Shown one piece after another: positions 3,055 through 62,234 of a stretch of 64,000 nt of DNA (positions are counted from its first letter, which is position 1; each line of letters begins with the position of its first letter). The stretch is from Pyropia yezoensis (taxonomy: Eukaryota; Rhodophyta; Bangiophyceae; Bangiales; Bangiaceae), in assembly GCA_009829735.1 (NCBI GenBank), contig CM020618.1, forward strand, positions 1-64,000. The letters run 5' to 3'. Under the pieces are notes generated by a model. That model did not search any database. It was not told where the DNA came from and saw nothing but the letters and a program-made list of their open reading frames with translations. Made by a program: the position numbers and the translations under genes.

Positions 3055-3056
3055 TT

Positions 3057-3074
3057 TGGTGGAGCAGCAGGGGA
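3057..3074 (+). promoter_or_regulatory. Primer binding site of element A
   Basis: The 18 bases TGGTGGAGCAGCAGGGGA start two bases after the LTR end and recur exactly in elements B and C. The reverse complement ends in CCA and folds as a tRNA 3' end: CCA, discriminator A, a 7-base acceptor strand CTGCTCC, then a T-stem strand. It therefore primes minus-strand synthesis from a tRNA whose 5' end should read GGAGCAG. The isotype is not identified. Confidence 0.85.
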
Positions 3075-3200
3075 GGGGATTCGCTTCGCCTTCTGGTGGA
3101 GTCTCCTCTCCTTTTGTTGGGTGGTTTCTTGGTCGTGTGCTCTGTGGTTGGGTTGTGACCCCTGGTACCTTTTCTTTCTTGCCTTTACAGGTGGGTTAAG

Positions 3201-5890: not shown

Positions 5891-5895
5891 AGGAG

Positions 5896-28600: not shown

Positions 28601-31600
28601 CCGACGACACGCCGGCGCTGCAGCCGACCGGGCAGCCGGTGGACGAGACGGTGGCGGCGACGCTGGTGGGTGGGTTTGGGTCTGCGCCCACCGGGCAGCA
28701 GCCGACCGGCTCGCAGCCGGCGGACGACCCGGTGGAGCAGGAGCCGGCCGGCGTGCAGCCGACTGGCTTGTTGCCGACCGGCTTGCTGCCGGCTGGGGGC
28801 GAGGCCGCCGAGGAGCAGCCGGCCGGCATGGAGCCGGCGGACGACACTGTGGCGGACGATGAGTCGACGGCAGCCGGGGTGGCGCCGACGGGCTCGACGT
28901 CTGTGGACACGCAGCCGGGGATACTGGCGGGGGCGGTGGGCGCCGTGGCGGCGGTGTTTGGTACGGTGGGCGCGGCGGTGGTGTCGGGCTCGACCGAGCC
29001 GGATGAGGCGGAGGAGGAGTCGCCCGAGGAGGTGAAGGAGGAGTCGCCCGAGGAGGCGGCCGACACGACGGACGCGACGGGCGCGACGGTGGTGGCGGCG
29101 GCTGGGTTGACCAACACCCCGTCGTGGACAGAGGCGACGGGCGTCCCGGCCGACAGCAAGCCGGCCAAGCCGGCCAAGCCGGGCGGCCGCAAGCCGTCAC
29201 GCGCGGAGCTGGCGGCGTCGGTGGCGGGCGGCTCGCGGCCGTCGGGCACCAAGCCGGACGGCCGCAAGCCGTCGCGGCCGGGTGAGACGACCGAGCCGTC
29301 GCGGGTGACGCCGACGACCGAGGCAGCGTCGGACGAGGAGGGGGTGGGGGCGACGGAGCCGACGGGGGTGACGGCTGGCGTGCAGCCGTCGGGCTTGCAG
29401 CCGACCGGCTTTGAGCCGGCGGGCGCGCAGCCGACCGGCATGGAGCCGGCTGGGGAGCAGCCCGCCGGCTCACAGCCGACCGGGGAGCAGCCGGCGGACG
29501 ACGCGGCGGCGCAGGAGCCGACCAGCGTACAGCCGGTGGGCTCGGTGCTGGCTGGCATGGTGCCGGCTGGGCAGCAGGCCGCAGGGGAGCAGCCGACCGG
29601 GGAGCAGCCGGCGGAGGACCCCGTGGCGCAGGAGCCGACCGGGCAGCAGGTGGGCGACATGGTGGCGGCGACGCTGGCGGCTGGTGTTGGGTCTGCACCT
29701 GCCGGGGTGCAGCCAACCGGCATGCAGTCGGCCGACGAGCCGGCAGCGGTGCAGCCGAGCGGCGTGCAGCCGAGCGGCTCGCAGCCGCCTGGCTTCGAGC
29801 CGACCGGCTTGCTGCCGTCTGGCTTGGTGGCGACCGGCACGGTGCCGGCTGGGGAGCAGGCCGCCGGCTCGCAGCCGACCGGCTCGCAGCCGGCGGACGA
29901 CCCGGTGGAGCAGGAGCCGGCCGGCGTGCAGCCGACTGGCTTGTTGCCGACCGGCTTGCTGCCGGCTGGGGACGAGGCCGCCGAGGAGCAGCCGGCCGGC
30001 ATGGAGCCGGCGGACGACACTGTGGCGGTGACGGTGGGGGCGGGCGAGGTGCGGCCGGCCGGCATGCAGCCGGTGGACGACGCGGTAGGGGCGACGTTGG
30101 TGGCTGGCGTTGGGTCGGCGCCTGCCGGGCAGCAGCCCACCGGCATGCAGCCGGCCGACGACACGCCGGCGCTGCAGCCGACCGGGCAGCCGGTGGACGA
30201 GACGGTGGCGGCGACGCTGGTGGGTGGGTTTGGGTCTGTGCCCACCGGGCAGCAGCCGACCGGCTCGCAGCCGGCGGACGACCCGGTGGAGCAGGAGCCG
30301 GCCGGCGTGCAGCCGACTGGCTTGTTGCCGACCGGCTTGCTGCCGGCTGGGGGCGAGGCCGCCGAGGAGCAGCCGGCCGGCATGGAGCCGGCGGACGACA
30401 CTGTGGCGGACGATGAGTCGACGGCAGCCGGGGTGGCGCCGACGGGCTCGACGTCTGTGGACACGCAGCCGGGGATACTGGCGGGGGCGGTGGGCGCCGT
30501 GGCGGCGGTGTTTGGTACGGTGGGCGCGGCGGTGGTGTCGGGCTCGACCGAGCCGGATGAGGCGGAGGAGGAGTCGCCCGAGGAGGTGAAGGAGGAGTCG
30601 CCCGAGGAGGCGGCCGACACGACGGACGCGACGGGCGCGACGGTGGTGGCGGCGGCTGGGTTGACCAACACCCCGTCGTGGACAGAGGCGACGGGCGTCC
30701 CGGCCGACAGCAAGCCGGCCAAGCCGGCCAAGCCGGGCGGCCGCAAGCCGTCACGCGCGGAGCTGGCGGCGTCGGTGGCGGGCGGCTCGCGGCCGTCGGG
30801 CACCAAGCCGGACGGCCGCAAGCCGTCGCGGCCGGGTGAGACGACCGAGCCGTCGCGGGTGACGCCGACGACCGAGGCAGCGTCGGACGAGGAGGGGGTG
30901 GGGGCGACGGAGCCGACGGGGGTGACGGCTGGCGTGCAGCCGTCGGGCTTGCAGCCGACCGGCTTTGAGCCGGCGGGCGCGCAGCCGACCGGCATGGAGC
31001 CGGCTGGGGAGCAGCCCGCCGGCTCACAGCCGACCGGGGAGCAGCCGGCGGACGACGCGGCGGCGCAGGAGCCGACCAGCGTACAGCCGGTGGGCTCGGT
31101 GCTGGCTGGCATGGTGGCGGCTGGGCAGCAGGCCGCAGGGGAGCAGCCGACCGGGGAGCAGCCGGCGGAGGACCCCGTGGCGCAGGAGCCGACCGGGCAG
31201 CAGGTGGGCGACATGGTGGCGGCGACGCTGGCGGCTGGTGTTGGGTCTGCACCTGCCGGGGTGCAGCCAACCGGCATGCAGTCGGCCGACGAGCCGGCAG
31301 CGGTGCAGCCGAGCGGCGTGCAGCCGAGCGGCTCGCAGCCGCCTGGCTTCGAGCCGACCGGCTTGCTGCCGTCTGGCTTGGTGGCGACCGGCACGGTGCC
31401 GGCTGGGGAGCAGGCCGCCGGCTCGCAGCCGACCGGCTCGCAGCCGGCGGACGACCCGGTGGAGCAGGAGCCGGCCGGCGTGCAGCCGACTGGCTTGTTG
31501 CCGACCGGCTTGCTGCCGGCTGGGGACGAGGCCGCCGAGGAGCAGCCGGCCGGCATGGAGCCGGCGGACGACACTGTGGCGGTGACGGTGGGGGCGGCGA

Positions 31601-32308
31601 GGTGCGGCCGGCCGGCATGCAGCCGGTGGACGACGCGGTAGGGGCGACGTTGGTGGCTGGCGTTGGGTCGGCGCCTGCCGGGCAGCAGCCCACCGGCATG
31701 CAGCCGGCCGACGACACGCCGGCGCTGCAGCCGACCGGGCAGCCGGTGGACGAGACGGTGGCGGCGACGCTGGTGGGTGGGTTTGGGTCTGCGCCCACCG
31801 GGCAGCAGCCGACCGGCTCGCAGCCGGCGGACGACCCGGTGGAGCAGGAGCCGGCCGGCGTGCAGCCGACTGGCTTGTTGCCGACCGGCTTGCTGCCGGC
31901 TGGGGGCGAGGCCGCCGAGGAGCAGCCGGCCGGCATGGAGCCGGCGGACGACACTGTGGCGGACGATGAGTCGACGGCAGCCGGGGTGGCGCCGACGGGC
32001 TCGACGTCTGTGGACACGCAGCCGGGGATACTGGCGGGGGCGGTGGGCGCCGTGGCGGCGGTGTTTGGTACGGTGGGCGCGGCGGTGGTGTCGGGCTCGA
32101 CCGAGCCGGATGAGGCGGAGGAGGAGTCGCCCGAGGAGGTGAAGGAGGAGTCGCCCGAGGAGGCGGCCGACACGACGGACGCGACGGGCGCGACGGTGGT
32201 GGCGGCGGCTGGGTTGACCAACACCCCGTCGTGGACAGAGGCGACGGGCGTCCCGGCCGACAGCAAGCCGGCCAAGCCGGCCAAGCCGGGCGGCCGCAAG
32301 CCGTCACG
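16698..32308. repeat. Tandem array of about ten 1,554-bp units
   Basis: The landmark TTGACCAACACC recurs at 16729, 18282, 19836, 21337, 22891, 24445, 26000, 27554, 29107, 30661 and 32214, that is every 1,553-1,555 bp except one 1,501-bp interval. Copies are nearly identical across 15.6 kb. Each unit contains many 15-bp sub-repeats of the type CAGCCGACCGGCTCG plus a unique ~480-bp block. The unit length is a multiple of three (518 codons). Both ends of the array lie in assembly gaps, so copy number is a minimum. The homogeneity implies recent amplification or ongoing unequal exchange. Confidence 0.97.
28069..31641 (+). CDS. Possible repeat protein encoded by the 1,554-bp array (plus-strand reading)
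   Basis: One of the longest stretches that stays in a single sensible phase (1,190 codons). Each 518-residue repeat has pentapeptides of the form QPTGx, QPAGx or LPTGL, an acidic block (STEPDEAEEESPEEVKEE), a basic Lys/Pro block (KPAKPAKPGGRKPS) and a hydrophobic segment (GILAGAVGAVAAVFGTVG, continuing for 24 residues) that could span a membrane. No known family is recognised. The antisense frame is equally open and gives Cys-rich pentapeptides (CEPVGCxPAGS), for example 28005-24808 on the minus strand; the third codon positions of the two frames pair with each other, so wobble statistics cannot decide. It may also be non-coding. Confidence 0.3.
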   Translation: MAQEPTGQQVGDMVAATLAAGVGSAPAGVQPTGMQSADEPAAVQPSGVQPSGSQPPGFEPTGLLPSGLVATGTVPAGEQAAGSQPTGSQPADDPVEQEPAGVQPTGLLPTGLLPAGDEAAEEQPAGMEPADDTVAVTVGAGEVRPAGMQPVDDAVGATLVAGVGSAPAGQQPTGMQPADDTPALQPTGQPVDETVAATLVGGFGSAPTGQQPTGSQPADDPVEQEPAGVQPTGLLPTGLLPAGGEAAEEQPAGMEPADDTVADDESTAAGVAPTGSTSVDTQPGILAGAVGAVAAVFGTVGAAVVSGSTEPDEAEEESPEEVKEESPEEAADTTDATGATVVAAAGLTNTPSWTEATGVPADSKPAKPAKPGGRKPSRAELAASVAGGSRPSGTKPDGRKPSRPGETTEPSRVTPTTEAASDEEGVGATEPTGVTAGVQPSGLQPTGFEPAGAQPTGMEPAGEQPAGSQPTGEQPADDAAAQEPTSVQPVGSVLAGMVPAGQQAAGEQPTGEQPAEDPVAQEPTGQQVGDMVAATLAAGVGSAPAGVQPTGMQSADEPAAVQPSGVQPSGSQPPGFEPTGLLPSGLVATGTVPAGEQAAGSQPTGSQPADDPVEQEPAGVQPTGLLPTGLLPAGDEAAEEQPAGMEPADDTVAVTVGAGEVRPAGMQPVDDAVGATLVAGVGSAPAGQQPTGMQPADDTPALQPTGQPVDETVAATLVGGFGSVPTGQQPTGSQPADDPVEQEPAGVQPTGLLPTGLLPAGGEAAEEQPAGMEPADDTVADDESTAAGVAPTGSTSVDTQPGILAGAVGAVAAVFGTVGAAVVSGSTEPDEAEEESPEEVKEESPEEAADTTDATGATVVAAAGLTNTPSWTEATGVPADSKPAKPAKPGGRKPSRAELAASVAGGSRPSGTKPDGRKPSRPGETTEPSRVTPTTEAASDEEGVGATEPTGVTAGVQPSGLQPTGFEPAGAQPTGMEPAGEQPAGSQPTGEQPADDAAAQEPTSVQPVGSVLAGMVAAGQQAAGEQPTGEQPAEDPVAQEPTGQQVGDMVAATLAAGVGSAPAGVQPTGMQSADEPAAVQPSGVQPSGSQPPGFEPTGLLPSGLVATGTVPAGEQAAGSQPTGSQPADDPVEQEPAGVQPTGLLPTGLLPAGDEAAEEQPAGMEPADDTVAVTVGAARCGRPACSRWTTR

Positions 32309-40484: not shown

Positions 40485-41775
40485 TCACCATTCCGCTCTG
40501 ACAGGCGATGAAGCCGACAGGAAGGCCCTTCCCCATGCTCGTTTACCCCAGCCCAAACGGGCATCAGCGAGCCCTTCTTCCGGTTGTCGAACCGCTGGGG
40601 CAGCACACAGACAAAGGCCCGCCCCCGTCATGCGCCGCAGGCAAAGCCGCGTGGATCGCACAAGTGCTGTCTGGGCTTCTTCGCTCTCGCTGGCATCCGC
40701 TGCTTGCACGATGTGGTAAACGTCGGTCCGGGGCGGCAGAAGCGGCAGCGGCTGCTGGCGCGGGCGCAGCCATTTTGGCCGGGCTTGCCGCGTTCTCCCT
40801 CTCCACGCATGGGTGGCTGGTGCCCTCCGCTTCTGCCTGTTGCGGGGCTTCTGTGCGTGGTGGTGCTTTCTTGGTCTTCCACCCGCTGGAACTGCCGCGT
40901 GGCCGTCGCCCCTCTGGAACGGCATCGGGTGCTGGCAAGGGCGCCTCTTTTTTGGCCTCGCTGGCCCCGTTCTCCCTCCCCGCGCGCACGTTACTGGTGC
41001 CCTCCGCTTTTGCCTGTTGCAGGGGTGCTGTGCGTGTGGCTCCTTTCTTGCTCTTCCGCCCGCTGTTGCTGCCGCGTGGCCGTCGCCCCTCCGGGGCGGC
41101 ATCGGCTCCTGGCGCGGGCGCCCAATTCTTGGCCGGGCCGGCTGCATTCTCCCTCCCCGCGCATCGGTGGCTGGTGCCCTCCGCTTTTGCGTGTTGCGTG
41201 GCTTCTGTGCGTGTGGCTGCTTTCTCGGCCTTCCACCCGCTGAAGCTGCCGCGCGGCCGTCGCCCCTCTGGGGCGGCATCGGGTGCTGGCAAAGGCGCCG
41301 CTTTTTTGGCCGCGCTGGCCCCGTTCTCCCTCCCCGCGCGCGCGTTACTGGTGCCCTCCGCTTTTGCCTGTCGCAGAGCTGTTGTGTTTGAGAAGGCTGG
41401 CTCCCTCTGCTGCCCGCTCTTCCTGCAGCGCGGCCGTCGCCCCTCAGGGGCCGCATTGGCTGCTGGCGCGGGCGCCGCTTTCCTGGCCTTGCTGGCCGCG
41501 TTCTCTCTCCTCGCCCGCGGGTGGCTGGTGCCTTCCGCTTTTGCCTGTTGCGGTGGTGCTGTGCGTGTGGCTGCTTGATCACTCTTCTGCCCGCTTTTCC
41601 GGCGGCGTGTCTGTCGCCCCTCATTGGCGGCATCGGCTGCTGGCGCGGGCGCCGCCTTTTTGGTCCGGCTCGCCGCGTTCTCCCTCCCCGCGAGGGGGTG
41701 GCTGGTGCCCTCGGATTGCGGCTCTTGCTGTAGTGCGTTTTCTGGCGCTGTTTCTTGGTGCGTTCGGCATGTAGG
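40485..41775 (-). pseudogene. Gene or gene remnant with 59-residue basic repeats
   Basis: On the minus strand one phase reads about six repeats of 59 residues with the core KAEGTSHPxAGRENAA, AKKAAPAPAPDAAPEGRRPR, then SGxKxKK and TRTxxxQQA. The 177-bp period is a multiple of three and the amino-acid pattern is kept through base changes, which supports coding. At ~40740 coding seems to move one phase to a unique tail (DVYHIVQAADASESEEAQTA ...) ending at 40485. An in-frame stop lies at ~41793 with no ATG after it, so the start is missing, upstream of an unseen intron, or lost. The Lys/Ala/Pro-rich make-up resembles linker-histone tails or nucleolar proteins; no family is assigned. Confidence 0.45.
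40735..41770. repeat. 177-bp tandem repeat, ~5.8 copies
   Basis: The landmark CTGGTGCCCTCCGC (plus strand) occurs at 40817, 40994, 41171, 41348, 41525 and 41702, exactly 177 bp apart each time. Copies differ by scattered substitutions, but no length change occurs, consistent with selection for frame. Confidence 0.95.
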
Positions 41776-47643: not shown

Positions 47644-48143
47644 NNNNNNNNNNNNNNNNNNNNNNNNNNNNNNNNNNNNNNNNNNNNNNNNNNNNNNNNN
47701 NNNNNNNNNNNNNNNNNNNNNNNNNNNNNNNNNNNNNNNNNNNNNNNNNNNNNNNNNNNNNNNNNNNNNNNNNNNNNNNNNNNNNNNNNNNNNNNNNNNN
47801 NNNNNNNNNNNNNNNNNNNNNNNNNNNNNNNNNNNNNNNNNNNNNNNNNNNNNNNNNNNNNNNNNNNNNNNNNNNNNNNNNNNNNNNNNNNNNNNNNNNN
47901 NNNNNNNNNNNNNNNNNNNNNNNNNNNNNNNNNNNNNNNNNNNNNNNNNNNNNNNNNNNNNNNNNNNNNNNNNNNNNNNNNNNNNNNNNNNNNNNNNNNN
48001 NNNNNNNNNNNNNNNNNNNNNNNNNNNNNNNNNNNNNNNNNNNNNNNNNNNNNNNNNNNNNNNNNNNNNNNNNNNNNNNNNNNNNNNNNNNNNNNNNNNN
48101 NNNNNNNNNNNNNNNNNNNNNNNNNNNNNNNNNNNNNNNNNNN
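47644..48143. other. Assembly gap (500 N)
   Basis: Exactly 500 N between element C and the helicase array. Orientation and distance between the two sides are not proven. Confidence 0.99.
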
Positions 48144-50557
48144 CCAAAAGCCACTCCCCGCAGGGTCGTACCCGCCAGTGAGCTCCCGGAAGAGGGAAAA
48201 GATATCGGCGTGAAGGCTCTCTAGGCGGCGGCCGAGCTCCCGGGTGCTCATGTGCAGCTGCGCTCCCAACAGGGTGCCGCAAACGGGGCGCCCTTGAGCC
48301 GGTGACCCCACCGTGACAGGGCGCGCATGCGACGGGTCGTCACACGGGAGAAAAGACGGGCGCCATTGTTTCGCTCCGCCCAATGGCCTCGGCCATGCCC
48401 GACAGGTGGACAACGTAGGCGGCCGCCGTGACCCGGGAGGGGTCAGACTTGCGCGCAATCGCGGCAAACAATTCGTCAGACGACGCCTCGCTATGTGCCA
48501 TGTAGTAGAGGGTGTTGGTGATCTTGATGGAGAAGAGCAACGCAGCAGTCAGGCGCTGCGCGTTGCCGGCGTCGGCGTACCGGGCGGGGTCGGTGCGGCC
48601 AAGACCGAGGGAGCCGTACACCACCGCGAGAAAAGGCATCACCAGCTCGACGTCCGACTGGCCTTTGCAGGCTGGGTCGCCCCGCCGGGCACGGGGGTCG
48701 TACTCCTCGTGAAAGAGGGCGAGCAAAAGGGCCTGAAAGAGAGGCTCCGTGTCCGCGGCGGGGGAGGCCAAAGGGGAACCCAGCAAAGGCCCTTGGGCAC
48801 CTTGACCTCTGTTACCGCCGCCAGCGGAGGCCACCTCTTGAGCGTCGAGCGCCACGGTGAGAGCGTCAGCGGCCGAGATAGATGAGGCCGATAACGTGGG
48901 GAGACGCCGGTCGTCTGCGACAATGTCTGCGGCGCAGCGGTGCCCGAGGCGCACAATGTCCATGACCACCAAGAGCAGGATGGACGTGTCCCGAACGTAC
49001 CGCTGAACAGTGCCGGGCCGGAGGTTGACGTGGAAGGCTCGGCCGCTGTCGTCGCGGCCGACGACAGACGCATTTTACGCGACAGCACCGAGGCGCTGCG
49101 GCTACGAAGAAACGCAATGCAGCGTCCGTCGCACGCTGGATGCCGGCGCGGAGCGCCACGTACATGGGACGGTCGCAATGTTGACGACCCTCTGGGCCTT
49201 CCACATCGAGCAGCGAAAAGTGGTCCGCCACGGCAGCGGCGGTCCAGCCAAGGTCCTTGAGAGAGACGTCGTACCGCTCCATGTGCAGGAGGCCCCCCGC
49301 CTCGGTGTCATTGGTTGCCTCGGATGAGGGCAGCCGTTCCAGCGGGGAGCCGAGAGTCGAAGACGCGCCAAGAAATGCATCCAAACACACACGCTGGTTG
49401 ACTTGAGGGGGCGGCACCTGCGGTGTGTCGTCGACTCCAGAGGCGGCAGCGGCAGCGGCGGCGGCGTCGGCGGCGGCGTGGGGAGCAGGGGGCACGGGAG
49501 CGCCAAGGGCGGTGGGGAGCAGAGCACCTGCCGCGACTCGGACGTGCACCGCACCTGAGGCCGCTTGGGATGGCACCCCGCAAGAGACAGGGAAGAAGCA
49601 CGTTTTGTTGCCCCGCTTGAGCGTCTGACCAGACACAATGTAAAAGCGCTTGTTGCCGCACGCGTCGGTAGGGTCACTCGCGGATGCAGGCGACGCAGAG
49701 GACGGCCGCGGAGTTCCCGACGCCCTGCGGGTAACCGTCTTGTGCACGCCCTGTGCGCTCGGCGCCATCGAGCGGCAGGTGTAGCACGCGTGGAGCCCCG
49801 TACAAATGGAAAGGGCAGGAACCGCTGGTAGGTGAGCGGCGGCGGGGCCAGCGGGCCAGGCACGGAGGGAGTAGCGCTCTCTGAGCCCAACTTGGCCGCC
49901 AGTCGGCTCGACAGCCAGGGCTGCACGCGCGGCGGCAATGCCCACCGTCTGAACACTGGCCAGGCGGGCGGCCACGCCGCTGTCCTCAGAACCAGTCGCC
50001 TGGGCGTCGGCGCAGCCCATCTTTTCCACAGCTGCCTTGTGCGGCCCACCGCGGACATGGTGACCAAGCAGGGCGCCGTCCAAAAACGTAGTGTCACACG
50101 GGATGCACACCACACTGTGGGCATCAGACCAAATGTAAAAAAAAATTTCCGTGTCCGCGAGGTTGTAGGGGGCGTCGTACGCAGTGGACGTAGGAACACG
50201 CGTCGAGCCATCCTCCTCAGCATCAACGGGAGCACGAATAGGGGCGGCCGCCGTGGCAGGGCCACCACCGTCGGCGGTCAGCGCGGAGACAGGGACAGGG
50301 TCAGTGGCGACCACATCGGCTGCAGCTGAGGCAGGGGCACGGACAGTGGCCAGAGCGCCGACAGAGGTGGCACCCAGAGGACGCGCAAGAGAAAGGGCGA
50401 CAGCCTGGGCTGAGACAGGCACAGCGCGCGGCGAGACAGGCGGAGGAGCGGAACGAAGTACAGCAACAGAAGAGGGGGCCGCCGCAGGGGCAGCCAGAGA
50501 AGCGACAGGCGAGCTGCCTTCCTCAGGGTCGGTGGAGTTCGGGACGGCTGTAGACAT
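48144..50557 (-). pseudogene. Telomere-linked-helicase-like gene, copy 1 (N-terminal part, frameshifted)
   Basis: Same start as copy 2 (ATG 50557) and nearly the same protein for ~480 residues, including both zinc fingers. Compared with copy 2 it lacks one base near 49120 and another near 49055, and has an extra base near 48355, so the frame leaves the true one at residue ~480. The part beyond 48144 (rest of the gene) is replaced by the gap. Whether this is real decay or consensus error cannot be told from one sequence. Confidence 0.8.
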
Positions 50558-52812
50558 GGTGGGTTGGTTGTGATGAAAGCTCCAGGGCGGGGGGACCGAT
50601 GCCGGTTAAAGGGGTCGTCAAGGCCACTGTCGCGGAGGGTGCTTCACCGGAGGAGAAAGATACAGAGGGCGATACGCACAGCAGGAGATTAGGCAAGCGC
50701 CGAGAGGAAGACGTGTGAGAGACTGGGCTGTGGTGGAGTGGGTGGTGGGGTGGGCGGCAGGTTCCGTTTTTCGGCGCGAAACTGGGCCGCCATGTAACGG
50801 TCAACGGCGGTGCGCGACTGACCTGTAGGCGGGCACATCGCAGCTTCCGTTTCGTGGCGCGAAACTGAGCCGTTCTGTCACCGATAACGGCAGCGGTGCT
50901 TCGGAGGCGAGTTGATCCCGTTGGTCTTGTCGAGCTCGCGCGCGCACGAGAGAGCCGTTTTTCTTGGAGGGTCGAATGGGGGCCCCGCGCGGGAGGCGTT
51001 CACTCTTTCCGAGGATGAACGCCACCGGGCAGCCAATCAGATGTCTTGAATCGCAGCGTTCATCGTTGAAAAGGATGGGCGCGGCGGGCGTCCATCGTTG
51101 AAAAGGATGAACAGGGGTCTACTTGTCGTACTGTAAATAAGCCATGCGGTGCGGGACCAACTGCAGATGGGCGGGCGGGGAAAAGGAGCTCCGAGGAGGG
51201 ACGTTACAGTGCGGTAAAGTGTGGGGCCGCGCGGGGGCCGCCCTCACGAGGGGTCTGGCAGTTGTGCGTGGCAAGGGCAGGGTGGAGAGGGGGGGGAGGG
51301 GAATGAGGAGGTGAATGTGGGACGGGGTGGAGAATCAGGATGAGGTGGTCGGACTGGGGATCGGTGGTAGGGGAGTGCCGCGAAAGTGCGAGGGGGGCGA
51401 CTGAATCATGTACTATCGATGAGTGCGTGAGGCGAGCGGGAGGAAGGGAGGTCGGGGGGACAAGTTGGGGGTCGGAAAAGGCCAGGGTCTGCTAGAGTTT
51501 GGGTAGAGGCGTCTGTAAAGGGGGGGGGAAGATAGTGGTAGAGGACTGGTGGGGTGCGTGTGGAGGAAGGGAAGTCAGGTTCTCGCGGGAGTGGGGGGGG
51601 AGCGGGGCAGCGGGGGTGCCACACAAGCGGGGCGGTGGGTGAGGCACGGGGGACGATTTCGTGGGACAAGGGGGGGCAACGGGGAAAAGAAAGGACGTGT
51701 ACGAACGCGGCGAGGAAAGGGGACGCTGGAAAGGATCGAATCGAAGGGGTCCGAGGGAGGCGACCTCAGCAAAGAATGACTATGCGCAAGGGCGGGGGAG
51801 GACGGGGAGAAGGGGGGCGAGTGGGCGGGGGTGGGAGGTGACGCGGTAGAAGGGAAGAAAAAAGAGGGACGGCTGGGAGACGGGGGGGCCGGGGGGGTGG
51901 GTGGGGGCGGCAGGGGCGTCAAAGGACTTTGGGCGGGGGGGGCTGTGGAGGGCGGCAGGGGTGTGAAGGGACTTTGTACAAACACGGGGTCGCTGGCCGT
52001 GAGCGGGGGAGTCCGCGGGAATGGGGGCAGCTGGGGTGGAGCGGGGGGAATCGGGTGGACGGGACGAAGACAAAGGGCGGGGGGGTGACTTGGCGGAGGG
52101 GGGGGGACAGGGCTTAGGGGGCGGGACCGGGCGGAGGAGGGGGAACGGTGTGGAGAGCGGGGGAAGGCGCGGACTGAGGCCCGGGGGGAGACCAAGGGCC
52201 GGAGAGGATACAGGGGGAAGGGGGAGGGCAGGGGAGAGAGAGAGGGCTCTGAGGGGTGGGAGGGGGGCGGGGTGGGGCGGCTGGGGCGTAAAAGGACTAT
52301 GTGCAAAGACGGGGTCGCTGGGGGTGAGCGGGGGAGTCCGTGGGGATAGGGGGAGATGGGGGGCGCTGGGAGTTGGGGGTCGGGGGGATTAACGAGGGGC
52401 GGGGTGTGACGGGGAGGGACGGGGGAGTGACGGGGAGGAGGGGGGGGGGCGGGGCGGGGTCGGGTTGAGACAGGGCGGACGGAGGGGCACGGGGCGTGGA
52501 GGGGGGACAGGGCGGAGGAGGGGGACCGGGGCGGAGAGGAGGGGTCTGGGCGGAGAGGAGGGGACGGGGTCTGGGCGGAGAGGAGGGGACGGGGTGAGGG
52601 GGAGGCTTACAGGGGCGTTTATCGTACTGTTTCGGGGGAAAACTCGAAGGGCGAATCGATGCACACAGCTCGGAATCGATGGACGCCCGGACAGGCCATT
52701 CAGAGCACCCCCCCAGGATTGGCTGGAATCGAGGTGTCCATCAAATTGAAACACTGGCCGGAATGGGTCAAAACGGCCGCCCGCCCATCGATTTTTTGTA
52801 GAATATACATAT
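50558..52812. other. Spacer between helicase copies 1 and 2, with G-rich tract
   Basis: 2.2 kb with no believable gene. Nearest the gene (50558-51130) is sequence of mixed composition with paired E2F-like sites and a repeated CATCGTTGAAAAGGATG (51061 and 51093). From ~51170 to 52610 the plus strand is extremely G-rich, with many runs of five or more G, and with a repeated block (GGACTTTGTACAAACACGGGG at ~51970, a variant at ~52295). The last ~190 bp (52620-52810) is again mixed and ends at the helicase breakpoint. Long open frames here (Pro/Ser-rich on the minus strand) follow from skew. Confidence 0.75.
50773..50864. promoter_or_regulatory. Two E2F-like sites upstream of helicase copy 1
   Basis: GGCGCGAAA at 50773-50781 and 50856-50864, the complement of TTTCGCGCC, which is the E2F/DP consensus. 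Both sit in a ~28-bp direct repeat (TTCCGTTT..GGCGCGAAACTG.GCCG). They lie 216 and 299 bp upstream of the ATG at 50557. Confidence 0.45.
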
Positions 52813-55800
52813 TAGAATTGCCACAGGGCGGGTGGGAGTCCAACCGGTGGCGGCAAGCAGCGGCTGAACCCACCGCACAGGAGCGGTGGCGGTCAGGAGT
52901 ATGAGAGGACACGGCAGGGTGGCCAATACGTCCTTGACAAACACCAAAAGGTGCCGAAACGAGCCCCACAGACCGAGAAGGTGCACCTCATCAATCACCA
53001 CTCGCCCCAACCGACCTTGCGCGTCGAGCCCGCGGATGAGAGCCACAAACTGTGCTCGGTTACGCACAATGACGGCGGCATCGGCCACCACGACCGCCAC
53101 GTCTGGCGCCAAGCGCTGCGCCCATGACCCGGCGCGGACGGGCATGCGGGCGGCAGCGTCGAGGATTGTGGCGCTGACCGCTCGCGTGGTTGTCAAGACA
53201 ATCGTCACGGTGGGACACCACAAGGAAGCCCGTCGGGAAAAGGCAACTGCGGCTGCCGCCCCGCGGCTACCAATCGAGGACGCGGTGGCACCACCAGCAC
53301 CAGCTCCTGCACGACCGCAAAAGTCAGAGCTTCCGCCGTTGAAATGGTCTGCTGCCCCTACCGACCGCCGGTGCTGCTCGTACTGATACAGCTCGTACTG
53401 CTGCTTGGCGGCTTCGTGCTGGTGCTCGGCTTGTACAGCAGCGTTTGCTGCCGCTGCGGCCTCAATGTACGCGACGAGCAGAAAGGTGGCACTCTTGCCG
53501 CCCCCCGTCGGAAGAACCTTCAGCTGCGTCACAGCGTCACGGGCGCACAATGTACGAACTGTCGCTAGGCGCTGCGTGGGGGACTTGAAGCCACCAGGCC
53601 CGTATACCTGCCTGGCTGCAGCATCCACGGCAGCCTCGGCTACCGACAAGGACATACGGAATGCGCGGCAGCCCAACGTAGGGGCCGAAGCCACAGCACA
53701 GGCGGGTGCGACGGCCAGTGTGGCGGCACTCGATACTGCGCCGCCAACGCCACCTGCTGGGACGGCACCACCCCCGTCTGCTGTGCCAGATGCTCCACCA
53801 AGGGATGACGGGAGATGGCCATTGTCAGTGGCGGCGGCGGCGGAGGCGTGTTGGGCTGCGCGGCCCAATGGTGGGGGCGGTGGCCTGAATACCGGCGACA
53901 GTCCAGAATCCTTTGACGGATGAAGCGGGTGTCGCAGACCGTCCTGATAATGGCGTGACTCGACGCCCATAGAGGTGTGCCACCACGAGCTAGCTCGACG
54001 AAACCAGAAAACGCTTGCCGCCGTCAGCTCATTGACCGCCAGGTCCTCCAGGCCAGCATACCGCTGCGTGGCGGTTGTGGATGTGTGGCCCGCCTGAGCG
54101 TCGAGCACTCTCCCAATGTCGGCGACAACGCCATCCGTGCCGCCTCCTGGCCCGTCCGCACCAATGTCGTGGCTCAGGATGTCGTAGCCGGTTGCCATCT
54201 TGGTTATGCCTGCGAGAAACTGTCGCAAGACTCGGACGCCCACATACGAGCCCGACTGCTCCCGAAGACCGTGCAGCAAGCCCGACTCTAGCGCCTTGTT
54301 CAGCACATAGGGGGACAGCTGCACACCACGGGCGTCACGAAAGAGGAGAGCCCGGTCCACCTCCTCCGCGTGACCGCAGGCACTGCTCACGACGCCCCTG
54401 ACGGCGGCGGCGGATGCGCCGCCAAGCCCGCCCAGGCTGTCGCCGTTGTTAGAGACTCGGGTGGCGCGAGACACGTAGGCTTGCAGGGGGTCCAGAAACA
54501 CGACGACCAGCAAAATAAGGGAGGACGTCTTGGCGGCCATCCAGCGAAGTACGGGGCGGCCCCTGCCTTCAGCACAGGCCTGACCCTTGCTGTACGTCAG
54601 CACCGTGAATACGCTCCCAGCGTGGACAAAAAGGCTTCTACGGGCACGCGCGGTAGAGGCGACCACCTTGAGCGCCGCGTCCTCGGTTTGACGGCCCGGC
54701 GAGCCGCCGGCGACGTGCATGGCAGCCCACAATAGGGCGCGCAGCCGCTCAGCCTTTGCTTCCCAGCGCGCAATGGCGCCGCGCGCCACCTCTGCGGGCG
54801 GCGGCGCGGTGGCGCCGGAGCTGGCTGCAGGACCCTGCACGGGCCGCACCGGGCAGGCAGCCGACTCGAGAGCGCCAGATGCCACAAAGTGCGACAGCCA
54901 CCGCCGTACAAGCTGCCGGTTTTGGGGCAGCTGAAGAAAGCCTACGCCCGGCGCGTGCGCCGATGGGCGGTCCACCAGGCGGATGGCGTCCGCCCAAAAG
55001 CCACTCCCCGCAGGGTCGTACCCGCCAGTGAGCTCCCGGAAGAGGGAAAAGATATCGGCGTGAAGGCTCTCTAGGCGGCGGCCGAGCTCCCGGGTGCTCA
55101 TGTGCAGCTGCGCTCCCAACAGGGTGCCGCAAACGGGGCGCCCTTGAGCCGGTGACCCCACCGTGACAGGCGGCGCATGCGACGGGTCGTCACACGGGAG
55201 AAAGACGGGCGCCATTGTTTCGCTCCGCCCAATGGCCTCGGCCATGCCCGACAGGTGGACAACGTAGGCGGCCGCCGTGACCCGGGAGGGGTCAGACTTG
55301 CGCGCAATCGCGGCAAACAATTCGTCAGACGACGCCTCGCTATGTGCCATGTAGTAGAGGGTGTTGGTGATCTTGATGGAGAAGAGCAACGCAGCAGTCA
55401 GGCGCTGCGCGTTGCCGGCGTCGGCGTACCGGGCGGGGTCGGTGCGGCCAAGACCGAGGGAGCCGTACACCACCGCGAGAAAAGGCATCACCAGCTCGAC
55501 GTCCGACTGGCCTTTGCAGGCTGGGTCGCCCCGCCGGGCACGGGGGTCGTACTCCTCGTGAAAGAGGGCGAGCAAAAGGGCCTGAAAGAGAGGCTCCGTG
55601 TCCGCGGCGGGGGAGGCCAAAGGGGAACCCAGCAAAGGCCCTTGGGCACCTTGACCTCTGTTACCGCCGCCAGCGGAGGCCACCTCTTGAGCGTCGAGCG
55701 CCACGGTGAGAGCGTCAGCGGCCGAGATAGATGAGGCCGATAATGTGGGGACACGCCGGTCGTCTGCGACAATGTCCGCGGCGCAGCGGTGGCCGAGGCG

Positions 55801-57408
55801 CACAATGTCCATGACGACCAAGAGCAGGATGGATGTGTCCCGCACGTACCGCTGAACAGTGCCGGGCCGGAGGTTGACGTGGAAGGCTCGGCCGCTGTCG
55901 TCGCCGGCCGACGACAGACGCATTTTACGCGACAGCACAGAGGCGCTGCGGCTACGAAGAAACGCAATGGCAGCGTCCGTCACCCGCTGGATGCCGGCGC
56001 GGAGCGCGACGTACACGGGACGGTCGCAATGTTGACGACCCTCTGGGCCTTCCACATCGAGCAGCGAAAAGTGGTCCGCCACGGCAGCGGCGGTCCAGCC
56101 AAGGTCCTTGAGAGAGACGTCGTACCGCTCCATGTGCAGAAGGCCCCCCGCCTCGGTGTCATTGGTTGCCTCGGATGAGGGCAGCCGTTCCAGGGGCGAG
56201 CCGAGAGTCGAAGACGCGCCAAGAAATGCATCCAAACACACACGCTGGTTGACTTGAGGGGGCGGCACCTGCGGTGTGTCGTCGACTCCAGAGGCGGCAG
56301 CGGCAGCGGCGGCGGCGTCGGCGGCGGCGTGGGGAGCAGGGGGCACGGGAGCGCCAAGGGCGGTGGGGAGCAGAGCACCTGCCGCGACTCGGACGTGCAC
56401 CGCACCTGAGGCCGCTTGGGATGGCACCCCGCAAGAGACAGGGAAGAAGCACGTTTTGTTGCCCCGCTTGAGCGTCTGACCAGACACAATGTAAAAGCGC
56501 TTGTTGCCGCACGCGTCGGTAGGGTCACTCGCGGATGCAGGCGACGCAGAGGACGGCCGCGGAGTTCCCGACGCACTGCGGGTAACCGTCTTGTGCACGC
56601 CCTGTGCGCTCGGCGCCATCGAGCGGCAGGTGTAGCACGCGTGGAGCCCCGTACAAATGGAAAGGGCAGGAACCGCTGGTAGGTGAGCGGCGGCGGGGCC
56701 AGCGGGCCAGGCACGGAGGGAGTAGCGCTCTCTGAGCCCAACTTGGCCGCCAGTCGGCTCGACAGCCAGGGCTGCACGCGCGGCGGCAATGCCCACCGTC
56801 TGAACACTGGCCAGGCGGGCGGCCACGCCGCTGTCCTCAGAACCAGTCGCCTGGGCGTCGGCGCAGCCCATCTTTTCCACAGCTGCCTTGTGCGGCCCAC
56901 CGCGGACATGGTGACCAAGCAGGGCGCCGTCCAAAAACGTAGTGTCACACGGGATGCACACCACACTGTGGGCATCAGACCAAATGTAAAAAAAAATTTC
57001 CGTGTCCGCGAGGTTGTAGGGGGCGTCGTACGCAGTGGACGTAGGAACACGCGTCGAGCCATCCTCCTCAGCATCAACGGGAGCACGAATAGGGGCGGCC
57101 GCCGTGGCAGGGCCACCACCGTCGGCGGTCAGCGCGGAGACAGGGACAGGGTCAGTGGCGACCACATCGGCTGCAGCTGAGGCAGGGGCACGGACAGTGG
57201 CCAGAGCGCCGACAGAGGTGGCACCCAGAGGACGCGCAAGAGAAAGGGCGACAGCCTGGGCTGAGACAGGCACAGCGCGCGGTGAGACAGGCGGAGGAGC
57301 GGAACGAAGTACAGCAACAGAAGAGGGGGCCGCCGCAGGGGCAGCCAGAGAAGCGACAGGCGAGCTGCCTTCCTCAGGGTCGGTGGAGTTCGGGACGGCT
57401 GTAGACAT
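52768..57408 (-). CDS. Telomere-linked-helicase-like protein, copy 2: zinc fingers, tyrosine-recombinase-like region, truncated RecQ helicase
   Basis: Open for 1,546 codons. Residues 1-125 are Ala/Pro/Ser-rich. Two Cys/His clusters follow: C151-x2-C154 with H166/H167 and H173, and C258-x2-C261 with H272. The middle resembles a tyrosine recombinase: R1062 (VRVLRQF), H1108 (GHTSTTATQRYAG) and Y1117, with H-to-Y spacing of nine as in that family. The C-terminus is an SF2 RecQ-type domain: Walker A LPTGGGKS (K1305), DEVH at 1473-1476 and motif III TAT at 1506-1508. It stops ~39 residues later, so the second helicase lobe (motifs IV-VI) is missing. Fungal telomere-linked helicases share this order. 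Only the last ~14 residues come from non-homologous sequence across the unit junction. A truncated helicase lobe could bind but probably not unwind DNA. Confidence 0.85.
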   Translation of the reverse strand: MSTAVPNSTDPEEGSSPVASLAAPAAAPSSVAVLRSAPPPVSPRAVPVSAQAVALSLARPLGATSVGALATVRAPASAAADVVATDPVPVSALTADGGGPATAAAPIRAPVDAEEDGSTRVPTSTAYDAPYNLADTEIFFYIWSDAHSVVCIPCDTTFLDGALLGHHVRGGPHKAAVEKMGCADAQATGSEDSGVAARLASVQTVGIAAARAALAVEPTGGQVGLRERYSLRAWPAGPAAAHLPAVPALSICTGLHACYTCRSMAPSAQGVHKTVTRSASGTPRPSSASPASASDPTDACGNKRFYIVSGQTLKRGNKTCFFPVSCGVPSQAASGAVHVRVAAGALLPTALGAPVPPAPHAAADAAAAAAAASGVDDTPQVPPPQVNQRVCLDAFLGASSTLGSPLERLPSSEATNDTEAGGLLHMERYDVSLKDLGWTAAAVADHFSLLDVEGPEGRQHCDRPVYVALRAGIQRVTDAAIAFLRSRSASVLSRKMRLSSAGDDSGRAFHVNLRPGTVQRYVRDTSILLLVVMDIVRLGHRCAADIVADDRRVPTLSASSISAADALTVALDAQEVASAGGGNRGQGAQGPLLGSPLASPAADTEPLFQALLLALFHEEYDPRARRGDPACKGQSDVELVMPFLAVVYGSLGLGRTDPARYADAGNAQRLTAALLFSIKITNTLYYMAHSEASSDELFAAIARKSDPSRVTAAAYVVHLSGMAEAIGRSETMAPVFLPCDDPSHAPPVTVGSPAQGRPVCGTLLGAQLHMSTRELGRRLESLHADIFSLFRELTGGYDPAGSGFWADAIRLVDRPSAHAPGVGFLQLPQNRQLVRRWLSHFVASGALESAACPVRPVQGPAASSGATAPPPAEVARGAIARWEAKAERLRALLWAAMHVAGGSPGRQTEDAALKVVASTARARRSLFVHAGSVFTVLTYSKGQACAEGRGRPVLRWMAAKTSSLILLVVVFLDPLQAYVSRATRVSNNGDSLGGLGGASAAAVRGVVSSACGHAEEVDRALLFRDARGVQLSPYVLNKALESGLLHGLREQSGSYVGVRVLRQFLAGITKMATGYDILSHDIGADGPGGGTDGVVADIGRVLDAQAGHTSTTATQRYAGLEDLAVNELTAASVFWFRRASSWWHTSMGVESRHYQDGLRHPLHPSKDSGLSPVFRPPPPPLGRAAQHASAAAATDNGHLPSSLGGASGTADGGGAVPAGGVGGAVSSAATLAVAPACAVASAPTLGCRAFRMSLSVAEAAVDAAARQVYGPGGFKSPTQRLATVRTLCARDAVTQLKVLPTGGGKSATFLLVAYIEAAAAANAAVQAEHQHEAAKQQYELYQYEQHRRSVGAADHFNGGSSDFCGRAGAGAGGATASSIGSRGAAAAVAFSRRASLWCPTVTIVLTTTRAVSATILDAAARMPVRAGSWAQRLAPDVAVVVADAAVIVRNRAQFVALIRGLDAQGRLGRVVIDEVHLLGLWGSFRHLLVFVKDVLATLPCPLILLTATAPVRWVQPLLAATGWTPTRPVAILICIFYKKSMGGRPF

Positions 57409-59670
57409 GGTGGGTTGGTTGTGATGAAAGCTCCAGGGCGGGGGGACCGATGCCGGTTAAAGGGGTCGTCAAGGCCACTGTCGCGGAGGGTGCTTCACCG
57501 GAGGAGAAAGATACAGAGGGCGATACGCACAGCAGGAGATTAGGCAAGCGCCGAGAGGAAGACGTGTGAGAGACTGGGCTGTGGTGGAGTGGGTGGTGGG
57601 GTGGGCGGCAGGTTCCGTTTTTCGGCGCGAAACTGGGCCGCCATGTAACGGTCAACGGCGGTGCGCGACTGACCTGTAGGCGGGCACATCGCAGCTTCCG
57701 TTTCGTGGCGCGAAACTGAGCCGTTCTGTCACCGATAACGGCAGCGGTGCTTCGGAGGCGAGTTGATCCCGTTGGTCTTGTCGAGCTCGCCCGTGCACGA
57801 GAGAGCCGTTTTTCTTGGAGGGTCGAATGGGGGCCCCGCGCGGGAGGCGTTCACTCTTTCCGAGGATGAACGCCACCGGGCAGCCAATCAGATGTCTTGA
57901 ATCGCAGCGTTCATCGTTGAAAAGGATGGGCGCGGCGGGCGTCCATCGTTGAAAAGGATGAACAGGGGTCTACTTGTCGTACTGTAAATAAGCCATGCGG
58001 TGCGGGACCAACTGCAGATGGGCGGGCGGGGGAAAAGGAGCTCCGACGGAGGGACGTTACAGTGCGGTAAAGTGTGGGGCCGCGCGGGGGCCGCCCTCAC
58101 GAGGGGGTCTGGCAGTTGTGGGTGGCAAGGGCAGGGTGGAGAGGGGGGGGAGGGGAATGAGGAGGTGAATGTGGGACGGGGTGGAGAATCAGGATGAGGT
58201 GGTCGGACTGGGGATCGGTGGTAGGGGAGTGCCGCGAAAGTGCGAGAGGGGCGACTGAATCATGTACTATCGATGAGTGCGTGAGGCGAGCGGGAGGAAG
58301 GGAGGTCGGGGGGACAAGTTGGGGGTCGGAAAAGGCCAGGGTCTGCTAGAGTTTGGGTAGAGGCGTCTGTAAAGGGGGGGGGAAGATAGTGGTAGAGGAC
58401 TGGAGGGGTGCATGTGGAGGAAGGGAAGTCAGGTTCTCGCGGGAGTGGGGGGGGGAGCGGGGCAGCGGGGGTGCCACACAAGCGGGGCGGTGGGTGAGGC
58501 ACGGGGGACGATTTCGTGGGACAAGGGGGGGCAACGGGGAAAAGAAAGGACGTGTACGAACGCGGCGAGGAAAGGGGACGCTGGAAAGGATCGAATCGAA
58601 GGGGTCCGAGGGAGGCGACCTCAGCAAAGAATGACTATGCGCAAGGGCGGGGGAGGACGGGGAGAAGGGGGGCGAGTGGGCGGGGGTGGGAGGTGACGCG
58701 GTAGAAGGGAAGAAAAAAGAGGGACGGCTGGGAGACGGGGGGGCCGGGGGGTGGGTGGGGGCGGCAGGGGCGTCAAAGGACTTTGGGCGGGGGGGGCTGT
58801 GGAGGGCGGCAGGGGTGTGAAGGGACTTTGTACAAACACGGGGTCGCTGGCCGTGAGCGGGGGAGTCCGCGGGAATGGGGGCAGCTGGGGTGGAGCGGGG
58901 GGAATCGGGTGGACGGGACGAAGACAAAGGGCGGGGGGGTGACTTGGCGGAGGGGGGGGGACAGGGCTTAGGGGGCGGGACCGGGCGGAGGAGGGGGAAC
59001 GGTGTGGAGAGCGGGGGAAGGCGCGGACTGAGGCCCGGGGGGAGACCAAGGGCCGGAGAGGATACAGGGGGAAGGGGGAGGGCAGGGGAGAGAGAGAGGG
59101 CTCTGAGGGGTGGGAGGGGGGCGGGGTGGGGCGGCTGGGGCGTAAAAGGACTATGTGCAAAGACGGGGTCGCTGGGGGTGAGCGGGGGAGTCCGTGGGGA
59201 TAGGGGGAGATGGGGGGCGCTGGGAGTTGGGGGTCGGGGGATTAACGAGGGGCGGGGGTGTGACGGGGAGGGACGGGGGAGTGACGGGGAGGAGGGGGGG
59301 GGGCGGGGCGGGGTCGGGTTGAGACAGGGCGGACGGAGGGGCACGGGGCGTGGAGGGGGGACAGGGCGGAGGAGGGGGACCGGGGCGGAGAGGAGGGGTC
59401 TGGGCGGAGAGGAGGGGACGGGGTCTGGGCGGAGAGGAGGGGACGGGGTGAGGGGGAGGCTTACAGGGGCGTTTATCGTACTGTTTCGGGGGAAAAATCG
59501 AAGGGCGAATCGATGCACACAGCTCGGAATCGATGGACGCCCGGACAGGCCATTCAGAGCACCCCCCCAGGATTGGCTGGAATCGAGGTGTCCATCAAAT
59601 TGAAACACTGGCCGGAATGGGTCAAAACGGCCGCCCGCCCATCGATTTTTTGTAGAATATACATAGGTCG
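57409..59670. other. Spacer between helicase copies 2 and 3, with G-rich tract
   Basis: Second copy of the 50558-52812 spacer, almost identical, including the E2F-like pair, the repeated CATCGTTGAAAAGGATG and the ~1.4-kb G-rich stretch (58030-59460). The minus-strand 493-codon Pro/Ser-rich frame 59827-58346 is a by-product of C-rich composition. Confidence 0.75.
57624..57715. promoter_or_regulatory. Two E2F-like sites upstream of helicase copy 2
   Basis: Same pair as in front of copy 1: GGCGCGAAA at 57624-57632 and 57707-57715, 216 and 299 bp upstream of the ATG at 57408. Confidence 0.45.
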
Positions 59671-61734
59671 TAGAATTGCCACAGGGCGGGTGGGAGTCCA
59701 ACCGGTGGCGGCAAGCAGCGGCTGAACCCACCGCACAGGAGCGGTGGCGGTCAGGAGTATGAGAGGACACGGCAGGGTGGCCAATACGTCCTTGACAAAC
59801 ACCAAAAGGTGCCGAAACGAGCCCCACAGACCGAGAAGGTGCACCTCATCAATCACCACTCGCCCCAACCGACCTTGCGCGTCGAGCCCGCGGATGAGAG
59901 CCACAAACTGTGCTCGGTTACGCACAATGACGGCGGCATCGGCCACCACGACCGCCACGTCTGGCGCCAAGCGCTGCGCCCATGACCCGGCGCGGACGGG
60001 CATGCGGGCGGCAGCGTCGAGGATTGTGGCGCTGACCGCTCGCGTGGTTGTCAAGACAATCGTCACGGTGGGACACCACAAGGAAGCCCGTCGGGAAAAG
60101 GCAACTGCGGCTGCCGCCCCGCGGCTACCAATCGAGGACGCGGTGGCACCACCAGCACCAGCTCCTGCACGACCGCAAAAGTCAGAGCTTCCGCCGTTGA
60201 AATGGTCTGCTGCCCCTACCGACCGCCGGTGCTGCTCGTACTGATACAGCTCGTACTGCTGCTTGGCGGCTTCGTGCTGGTGCTCGGCTTGTACAGCAGC
60301 GTTTGCTGCCGCTGCGGCCTCAATGTACGCGACGAGCAGAAAGGTGGCACTCTTGCCGCCCCCCGTCGGAAGAACCGTCAGCTGCGTCACAGCGTCACGG
60401 GCGCACAATGTACGAACTGTCGCTAGGCGCTGCGTGGGGGACTTGAAGCCACCAGGCCCGTATACCTGCCTGGCTGCAGCATCCACGGCAGCCTCGGCTA
60501 CCGACAAGGACATACGGAATGCGCGGCAGCCCAACGTAGGGGCCGAAGCCACAGCACAGGCGGGTGCGACGGCCAGTGTGGCGGCACTCGATACTGCGCC
60601 GCCAACGCCACCTGCTGGGACGGCACCACCCCCGTCTGCTGTGCCAGATGCTCCACCAAGGGATGACGGGAGATGGCCATTGTCAGTGGCGGCGGCGGCG
60701 GAGGCGTGTTGGGCTGCGCGGCCCAATGGTGGGGGCGGTGGCCTGAATACCGGCGACAGTCCAGAATCCTTTGACGGATGAAGCGGGTGTCGCAGACCGT
60801 CCTGATAATGGCGTGACTCGACGCCCATAGAGGTGTGGCCACCACGAGCTAGCTCGACGAAACCAGAAAACGCTTGCCGCCGTCAGCTCATTGACCGCCA
60901 GGTCCTCCAGGCCAGCATACCGCTGCGTGGCGGTTGTGGATGTGTGGCCCGCCTGAGCGTCGAGCACTCTCCCAATGTCGGCGACAACGCCATCCGTGCC
61001 GCCTCCTGGCCCGTCCGCACCAATGTCGTGGCTCAGGATGTCGTAGCCGGTTGCCATCTTGGTTATGCCTGCGAGAAACTGTCGCAAGACTCGGACGCCC
61101 ACATACGAGCCCGACTGCTCCCGAAGACCGTGCAGCAAGCCCGACTCTAGCGCCTTGTTCAGCACATAGGGGGACAGCTGCACACCACGGGCGTCACGAA
61201 AGAGGAGAGCCCGGTCCACCTCCTCCGCGTGACCGCAGGCACTGCTCACGACGACGCCCTGACGGCGGCGGCGGATGCGCCGCCAAGCCCGCCCAGGCTG
61301 TCGCCGTTGTTAGAGACTCGGGTGGCGCGAGACACGTAGGCTTGCAGGGGGTCCAGAAACACGACGACCAGCAAAATAAGGGAGGACGTCTTGGCGGCCA
61401 TCCAGCGAAGTACGGGCGGCCCCTGCCTTCAGCACAGGCCTGACCCTTGCTGTACGTCAGCACCGTGAATACGCTCCCAGCGTGGACAAAAAGGCTTCTA
61501 CGGGCACGCGCGGTAGAGGCGACCACCTTGAGCGCCGCGTCCTCGGTTTGACGGCCCGGCGAGCCGCCGGCGACGTGCATGGCAGCCCACAATAGGGCGC
61601 GCAGCCGCTCAGCCTTTGCTTCCCAGCGCGCAATGGCGCCGCGCGCCACCTCTGCGGGCGGCGGCGCGGTGGCGCCGGAGCTGGCTGCAGGACCCTGCAC
61701 GGGCCGCACCGGGCAGGCAGCCGACTCGAGAGCG
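59671..61734 (-). pseudogene. Telomere-linked-helicase-like gene, copy 3 (C-terminal part, frameshifted)
   Basis: Matches copy 2 from residue ~885 to the helicase breakpoint. Relative to copy 2 there is an extra base near 60837 (GTGTGGCCACC against GTGTGCCACC), two extra near 61250 and one missing near 61416, so the frame is broken three times. The RecQ half (60828-59671) is intact to motif III, with Thr for Lys three residues before the P-loop (LTVLPTGGGKS). After the breakpoint the frame continues into spacer sequence to 59554. The 5' part is lost in the gap. Confidence 0.82.
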
Positions 61735-62234
61735 NNNNNNNNNNNNNNNNNNNNNNNNNNNNNNNNNNNNNNNNNNNNNNNNNNNNNNNNNNNNNNNNNN
61801 NNNNNNNNNNNNNNNNNNNNNNNNNNNNNNNNNNNNNNNNNNNNNNNNNNNNNNNNNNNNNNNNNNNNNNNNNNNNNNNNNNNNNNNNNNNNNNNNNNNN
61901 NNNNNNNNNNNNNNNNNNNNNNNNNNNNNNNNNNNNNNNNNNNNNNNNNNNNNNNNNNNNNNNNNNNNNNNNNNNNNNNNNNNNNNNNNNNNNNNNNNNN
62001 NNNNNNNNNNNNNNNNNNNNNNNNNNNNNNNNNNNNNNNNNNNNNNNNNNNNNNNNNNNNNNNNNNNNNNNNNNNNNNNNNNNNNNNNNNNNNNNNNNNN
62101 NNNNNNNNNNNNNNNNNNNNNNNNNNNNNNNNNNNNNNNNNNNNNNNNNNNNNNNNNNNNNNNNNNNNNNNNNNNNNNNNNNNNNNNNNNNNNNNNNNNN
62201 NNNNNNNNNNNNNNNNNNNNNNNNNNNNNNNNNN
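61735..62234. other. Assembly gap (500 N)
   Basis: Exactly 500 N between helicase copy 3 and element D. Confidence 0.99.

Follow-up and report, generated by a model that had tools for sequence, protein, structure and literature searches.

The window analyzed here, the first 64 kb of scaffold C1 of the 107.48-Mb genome of the red alga Pyropia yezoensis, contains a tandem array of genes for a RecQ-type helicase at positions 48144–61734. We propose that this locus is probably a broken tandem stretch of a multi-copy repeat resembling the telomere-linked helicase (TLH) genes, that the right end of the repeat joins sites reading A|GG (the bar marks the join), and that self-joining of this end within the helicase gene gives the truncated array. 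Three observations underlie the proposal, as follows. One terminus of the repeat joins A|GG sites, including sites within other copies. Helicase lobe 2 is lost locally, at tandem junctions, and not from the gene in general, which makes the half-helicase a junction by-product. The unit is a member of a repeated, mobile-looking family located mostly by the ends of the assembled chromosomes.

The Tandem Array and Its Assembly Context

The three large scaffolds, C1, C2, and C3, have lengths of 43,592,136, 34,331,705, and 29,385,039 bp; the published description of the source assembly gives scaffolds of 43.6, 34.3, and 29.4 Mb, built from 660 contigs (N50 340.8 kb) that were linked by Hi-C and BioNano (PMC7423979). 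A search for light-harvesting genes gave 14 matches in the genome. The segment 48144–61734 is exactly one stand-alone contig of 13.6 kb, bounded by two 500-N gaps at 47644–48143 and 61735–62234. Its placement at the chromosome end therefore depends on scaffolding. Within the contig, a 6,857-bp unit is repeated head-to-tail, with 99.3% identity between repeats. The initial annotation described three head-to-tail copies of a 6.85-kb unit; the tandem repetition stands, but only the middle copy is complete, with a partial unit on either side. All copies are on the minus strand. Copy 1 (48144–52811) comprises amino acid residues 1–821 of the gene, the 5′ leader, and the right end. Copy 2 (52813–59665) starts inside the helicase and runs up to the right end, and copy 3 (59666–61734) comprises residues 862–1550. 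In translated comparison with the full-length protein, copies 1 and 3 are frameshifted where they approach the contig ends.

The open frame of copy 2 (52768–57456, minus strand) has 1562 residues from stop to stop, with an ATG at 57408. It consists of residues 1–1548 of the full-length gene followed, beyond the unit junction, by 14 codons from the neighbour's right end. The frame contains the R..K..R..H-x8-Y signature, the Walker A sequence TGGGKS, DEVH, and the motif III sequence LLTATAP, and it stops shortly after motif III. The annotation had every copy lacking the second helicase lobe, which is true of copy 2 and of the part of copy 3 that is present, whereas copy 1 ends before the helicase.

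A short contig between gaps, with frameshifts by both ends and in an assembly as fragmented as the figures above indicate, might be an artefact in which noisy long reads of dispersed single copies were mis-assembled into an array. We consider this unlikely. A second contig, C1:76316–88979, has a lobe-2-bearing copy followed by a truncated copy, with a like junction between them, and a different kind of self-join is found at C1:1734413. Moreover, the three junctions at the helicase site differ from each other by a few bases, unlike one copied error.

Helicase Lobe 2 Is Lost at Tandem Junctions

In dispersed single copies, the unit runs from 4670 to 6857 and then from 1 to 4668. It follows that the internal point 4668/4670 is a real copy end and that the tandem unit is permuted. 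Leftwards of 4668/4670, the dispersed copies run on into helicase lobe 2. A genome search with the recombinase-like region of the protein identified 11 main-family copies in which that region is complete, at 98–100% identity, plus a relative at C2:9.50 Mb with 68% identity and other paralogues with 41–53%. Units with a complete helicase, for which the annotation had recommended a genome search, are thereby found: nine of the 11 main-family copies reach motif VI of lobe 2. Five of the 11 are open for 2,332–2,401 residues from stop to stop, and in the copy at the C1 end, the scaffold end cuts the gene right at motif VI.

The two copies without lobe 2, copy 2 of the window and the copy at C1:85688 (C1:85.7 kb), both border a tandem junction; there, one copy's fixed right end (...GTAGAATATACATA) meets the neighbour's helicase gene just past motif III. 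The earlier suggestion that the lobe is cut because the unit boundary lies in the gene agrees with this arrangement. The same annotation considered a recombinase joined to half a RecQ, and a functional enzyme of this kind, made from the tandem copies, could be imagined because the frame of copy 2 stays open from the ATG to the end of motif III. Nevertheless, motifs IV–VI, which any superfamily 2 (SF2) helicase requires, are absent there and present in nine of the 11 copies, and copies 1 and 3 are broken. We regard a half-RecQ enzyme as very improbable; since full-length copies with both lobes exist, the half-helicase is explained as a product of the junction.

The Right End Joins A|GG Sites

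The right end of the repeat is fixed and lies on the 5′ side of the gene. In the window, the right-end motif CCCATCGATTTTTTGTAGAATATACATA is found twice on the plus strand. At 52784–52811, it abuts the interior of the copy 2 helicase, the next bases being TTAGAATTG. At 59638–59665, the right end of copy 2 is joined to copy 3 as ...ATACATA|GGTCGTAGAATTG, where the uninterrupted gene reads ...GACGGA|GGTCGTAGAATTG. The 28-base right end has 10 exact occurrences in the genome and one with three mismatches. GG directly follows ...ATACATA in eight of the 10 exact joins; these eight are at C1:1734413, C1:1734492, C1:43584525, C2:4218, C2:36672, C2:34178715, C3:29298546, and window position 59665. With a GG frequency of 0.104, the expectation for eight GG joins is 0.104^8, or about 1e-8.

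Five related sequences that lack the element each read A|GG at the join point. The flank of the empty site at C2:38562 is 93.7% identical, and that at C3:29310232 is 87% identical. A third empty site, at the start of C2, is a diverged relative of the gene that is interrupted at the C1 end, with an alignment score of 46, the best of 200 shuffles scoring 22. The remaining sequences are self-targets, one being the helicase gene itself, GACGGA|GGTCGTAG, and the other lying within the element, 79 bp from its right end, CGA|GGTGTCC. Right-end joining at A|GG within the helicase gene accounts for the observed truncated tandem.

Shuffled sequences form as good a hairpin as the right end does (z 0.23). 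Two other candidates were rejected: the TCTGAGAGG..CCACA end, tried as the element's left end, belongs to a long terminal repeat (LTR) retrotransposon, and a 3′-truncated retroelement is incompatible with a fixed end at the gene's 5′ side.

The Encoded Protein

The product of the intact gene is a single protein of about 2,330 residues. A C2H2 finger lies in its low-complexity N-terminus and is followed, in order, by a second Cys cluster, the recombinase-like region, helicase lobes 1 and 2, and a Cys-rich C-terminus. Two Cys/His clusters had been annotated. The C2H2 finger, C167-x2-C170-x12-H183-x5-H189 in full-length numbering (56890–56958, minus strand), is kept in all eight aligned proteins, but the second Cys cluster is not conserved, with C268 replaced by Ser in three of the eight.

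The helicase is assigned to the RecQ-type SF2 enzymes on its profile matches and motifs, in line with the initial annotation. Lobe 1, from Walker A to DEVH, is encoded by 52981–53508 and motif III, the final motif before the junction, by 52879–52899, both on the minus strand. In an hmmsearch of PDB chains with a three-sequence profile, lobe 1 matched RECQ5 best, with an E value of 8.6e-10, and BLM at 3.4e-8. The Pfam DEAD model gave 25.4 and 25.7 bits with single sequences, just below the 26-bit cut-off, and 5.5e-11 with the paralogue L019; DpdF models match the helicase at 1e-7 and 3e-14. The profile matches to solved RecQ chains are confined to lobe 1, and lobe 2, which is diverged and rich in inserts, is assigned from motifs V and VI. 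Comparison with the C2:9.5 Mb relative by the NG86 method gives nonsynonymous over synonymous divergence (dN/dS) of 0.27/1.23 for the recombinase-like region and 0.30/1.50 for lobe 2, with dN/dS below 1 in all seven segments measured. This pattern, in comparison with a diverged copy, indicates purifying selection.

The tyrosine-recombinase-like region is encoded by 53917–54807 (minus strand). The residues R906, K941, R1059xxR1062, H1108, and Y1117, in the numbering of the window protein, are invariant in the window copy, the 68% relative, and a 46%-identical paralogue. A general recombinase pattern (R, K, (H/R)xxR, H/W, and Y, in order), composed after the protein had been seen, matches all three family sequences, as compared with 8, 2, and 2 of 20,000 shuffles of each. 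The pattern is also found in 12 of 162 background open reading frames, all 12 belonging to this helicase family, and in 47 of 81 XerD-like controls. Conservation around the five catalytic sites is above that at random sites (p 0.049). The region is likely, although unproven, to be a tyrosine recombinase, as judged from this signature.

The arrangement that the annotation had recognized is present and conserved, but independent methods give no confirmation. No Pfam integrase model matches the region. An hhalign comparison with 81 XerD-like sequences gave no significant match, the scores being equalled by 4 of 200 shuffles when two sequences were used and by 27 of 200 with three; the alignment comprised 18 columns at box III. 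In a global alignment, 35 of 200 shuffles were as good. AlphaFold2, run on the single sequence without an alignment, gave a confidence (pLDDT) of 37.5. A profile search of the PDB with the region produced no match up to an E value of 10, PHROGs gave weak matches to uninformative families, and no relatives were confirmed in viral and genome contig collections.

The 5′ leader of the gene, up to the right end, is G-rich. In copy 1 (50560–52811, plus strand), there are 14 G-quadruplex-type motifs covering 614 of 2252 bases, against a mean of 230 and a maximum of 405 in 100 shuffles. In copy 2 (57409–59665, plus strand), 14 such motifs cover 623 of 2257 bases. It is plausible that the leader is a substrate for the RecQ-type helicase.

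Genomic Location and Spread

Merging the matches to the recombinase-like region leaves 22 loci across C1, C2, and C3 and a further one on C7. Thirteen of the 22 fall in the terminal 100 kb of a scaffold, where 0.12 would be expected. Eighteen loci are no more than 2 Mb from an end, and transcription in 16 of them runs towards that end. These counts take in non-independent copies and may reflect scaffolding, as small contigs are placed at the ends and repeat contigs are often put there. The repetition and location fit the earlier description of the unit as a subtelomeric or mobile element. Telomere repeats, which the annotation suggested seeking beside the units, were not seen: no telomere-like array lies within 2 kb of any of the five scaffold ends inspected, which do not include the right end of C3.

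Contamination was rejected as a source of the family since a resident LTR retrotransposon is joined to element copies inside large scaffolds. The retrotransposon end TCTGAGAGGATCGAGTTTTATACCACA has 587+587 matches genome-wide, including a run spaced at about 2.6 kb at C1:9170015–9193417.

A second gene adjoins the helicase gene, and the two are neighbours in several copies. At C1:232916–238162 (minus strand), it has a frame of 1,748 residues. Its N-terminus is ParB/DUF262-like, with a weak match to GmrSD_N (E 0.0075), and its C-terminus resembles, by eye, a 2-oxoglutarate (2OG)-Fe(II) dioxygenase. The two parts have 98 and 82 matches in the genome, many distant from any helicase copy. At C1:43584524, the C1-end helicase element interrupts a relative of this second gene exactly at the end of its match.

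Elsewhere in the window, a contig-long array of units of about 1.55 kb, 77% in GC and open in several frames on both strands, occupies 16698–32308. A 177-bp tandem repeat with 5.5 copies is at 40742–41712, and the segment 62742–63998 (minus strand) encodes the RNase H of a Ty3-type reverse transcriptase and integrase zinc-binding domains.

Weighing the Proposal

Several points weigh against the proposal, in addition to the Pfam, hhalign, and AlphaFold2 results, the make-up of the end counts, and the telomere search. Two of the 10 right-end joins, at window position 52811 and at C1:84585, have no initial GG; both lie at one helicase site, to within a few bases. A left end was not found; the similar stretch extends past C1:230901, where four loci still match. 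A whole-genome search for the left half of the C3 empty site gave two positions only, C3:29310233 and C1:43560216, and nothing beside the filled copy at C1:1.73 Mb, so that joins may be one-sided. Finally, the copies at C1:1.71 Mb and C2:21.8 kb have one LTR-retrotransposon junction in common, which shows that some copies spread by duplication of segments.

The last three of these points also favour segmental duplication as the whole explanation. A host subtelomeric gene would have been spread by ectopic recombination and one-sided break repair, the right end would be a recopied breakpoint, and the recombinase-like part would have no share in the spread. Copies of 97–99.9% identity have long stretches in common, the retrotransposon junction among them, and the second gene accompanies the helicase gene in several copies. 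What this account has difficulty with is that 10 copies terminate at the same nucleotide, with A|GG at the join, and that for at least six the flanking DNA is unrelated. The repeated choice of one end and one target word is not expected from break repair, and we regard segmental duplication as possible but rather doubtful.

For the joining of the right end at A|GG, we envisage the following sequence of events. The finger of the protein would bind the element's own right end, the helicase part would open it, and the recombinase-like part, if catalytic, would join it at A|GG. A join at the A|GG in another copy's helicase gene would split off lobe 2 and create 6.85-kb head-to-tail units with a frame that stops past motif III. 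Ordinary recombination or unequal exchange between copies could then multiply the units into arrays. The near-end placement and end-directed transcription may reflect a subtelomeric habit.

Comparison with Known Systems

TLHs are known from fungi and include UTASa of Ustilago maydis, the TLHs of Magnaporthe and Fusarium, and tlh1 of fission yeast. To our knowledge, the means by which they spread among chromosome ends is an open question. In published accounts, UTASa is RecQ-like and adjoins telomere repeats, and UTASb has an OrsD domain (PMC10532341), while Fusarium chromosome ends carry full and truncated TLH regions (PMC12857005). No Pfam match to OrsD is found in the Pyropia protein.

The fungal TLHs appear to be the closest known kind, likened to the Pyropia family by descriptions of their design, as the initial annotation had proposed. 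Both consist of large RecQ-type helicase genes in many near-identical copies; the fungal genes cluster at chromosome ends, and the Pyropia copies at scaffold ends that may or may not be chromosome ends. The Pyropia family differs in its red algal host and in the lack of telomere repeats at the five ends. It also differs in having a precise A|GG right end and a recombinase-like region, for which our literature search found no TLH counterpart. A literature search for a TLH in algae gave just an unrelated fission-yeast match.

Other systems have some of these features. Cryptons, which are tyrosine-recombinase DNA transposons, are like the Pyropia element in being mobile-looking and in having an R-K-R-H-Y recombinase-type signature, with no inverted ends seen. 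The Pyropia element differs from them in carrying a RecQ helicase and in the replacement of the box II His by Arg. RECQ5 and BLM, on lobe 1, and the bacterial DpdF are profile matches to the Pyropia helicase, which differs from them in its fusion to a finger, a recombinase-like region, and a Cys-rich C-terminus, and in its diverged lobe 2. Yeast Y′ elements are likewise subtelomeric tandem units encoding a helicase, with another gene order and no recombinase-like part.

Implications

Half-helicases in arrays of this kind can be junction by-products rather than new enzymes. More broadly, it is tempting to propose, though only tentatively, that TLH-like genes are recombinase-driven mobile elements. 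A single polypeptide in this alga would carry a tyrosine recombinase and a RecQ helicase. The element would attach its precise right end, by one-sided joining, to A|GG sites both close to chromosome ends and in its own copies, and the resulting arrays would extend the chromosome ends. The precise end, the target word A|GG, and the conserved recombinase-like region make it a testable proposal that TLH genes move themselves. If it is true, a fused design shared by fungi and red algae would suggest that transposons of this class, at chromosome ends, are old.

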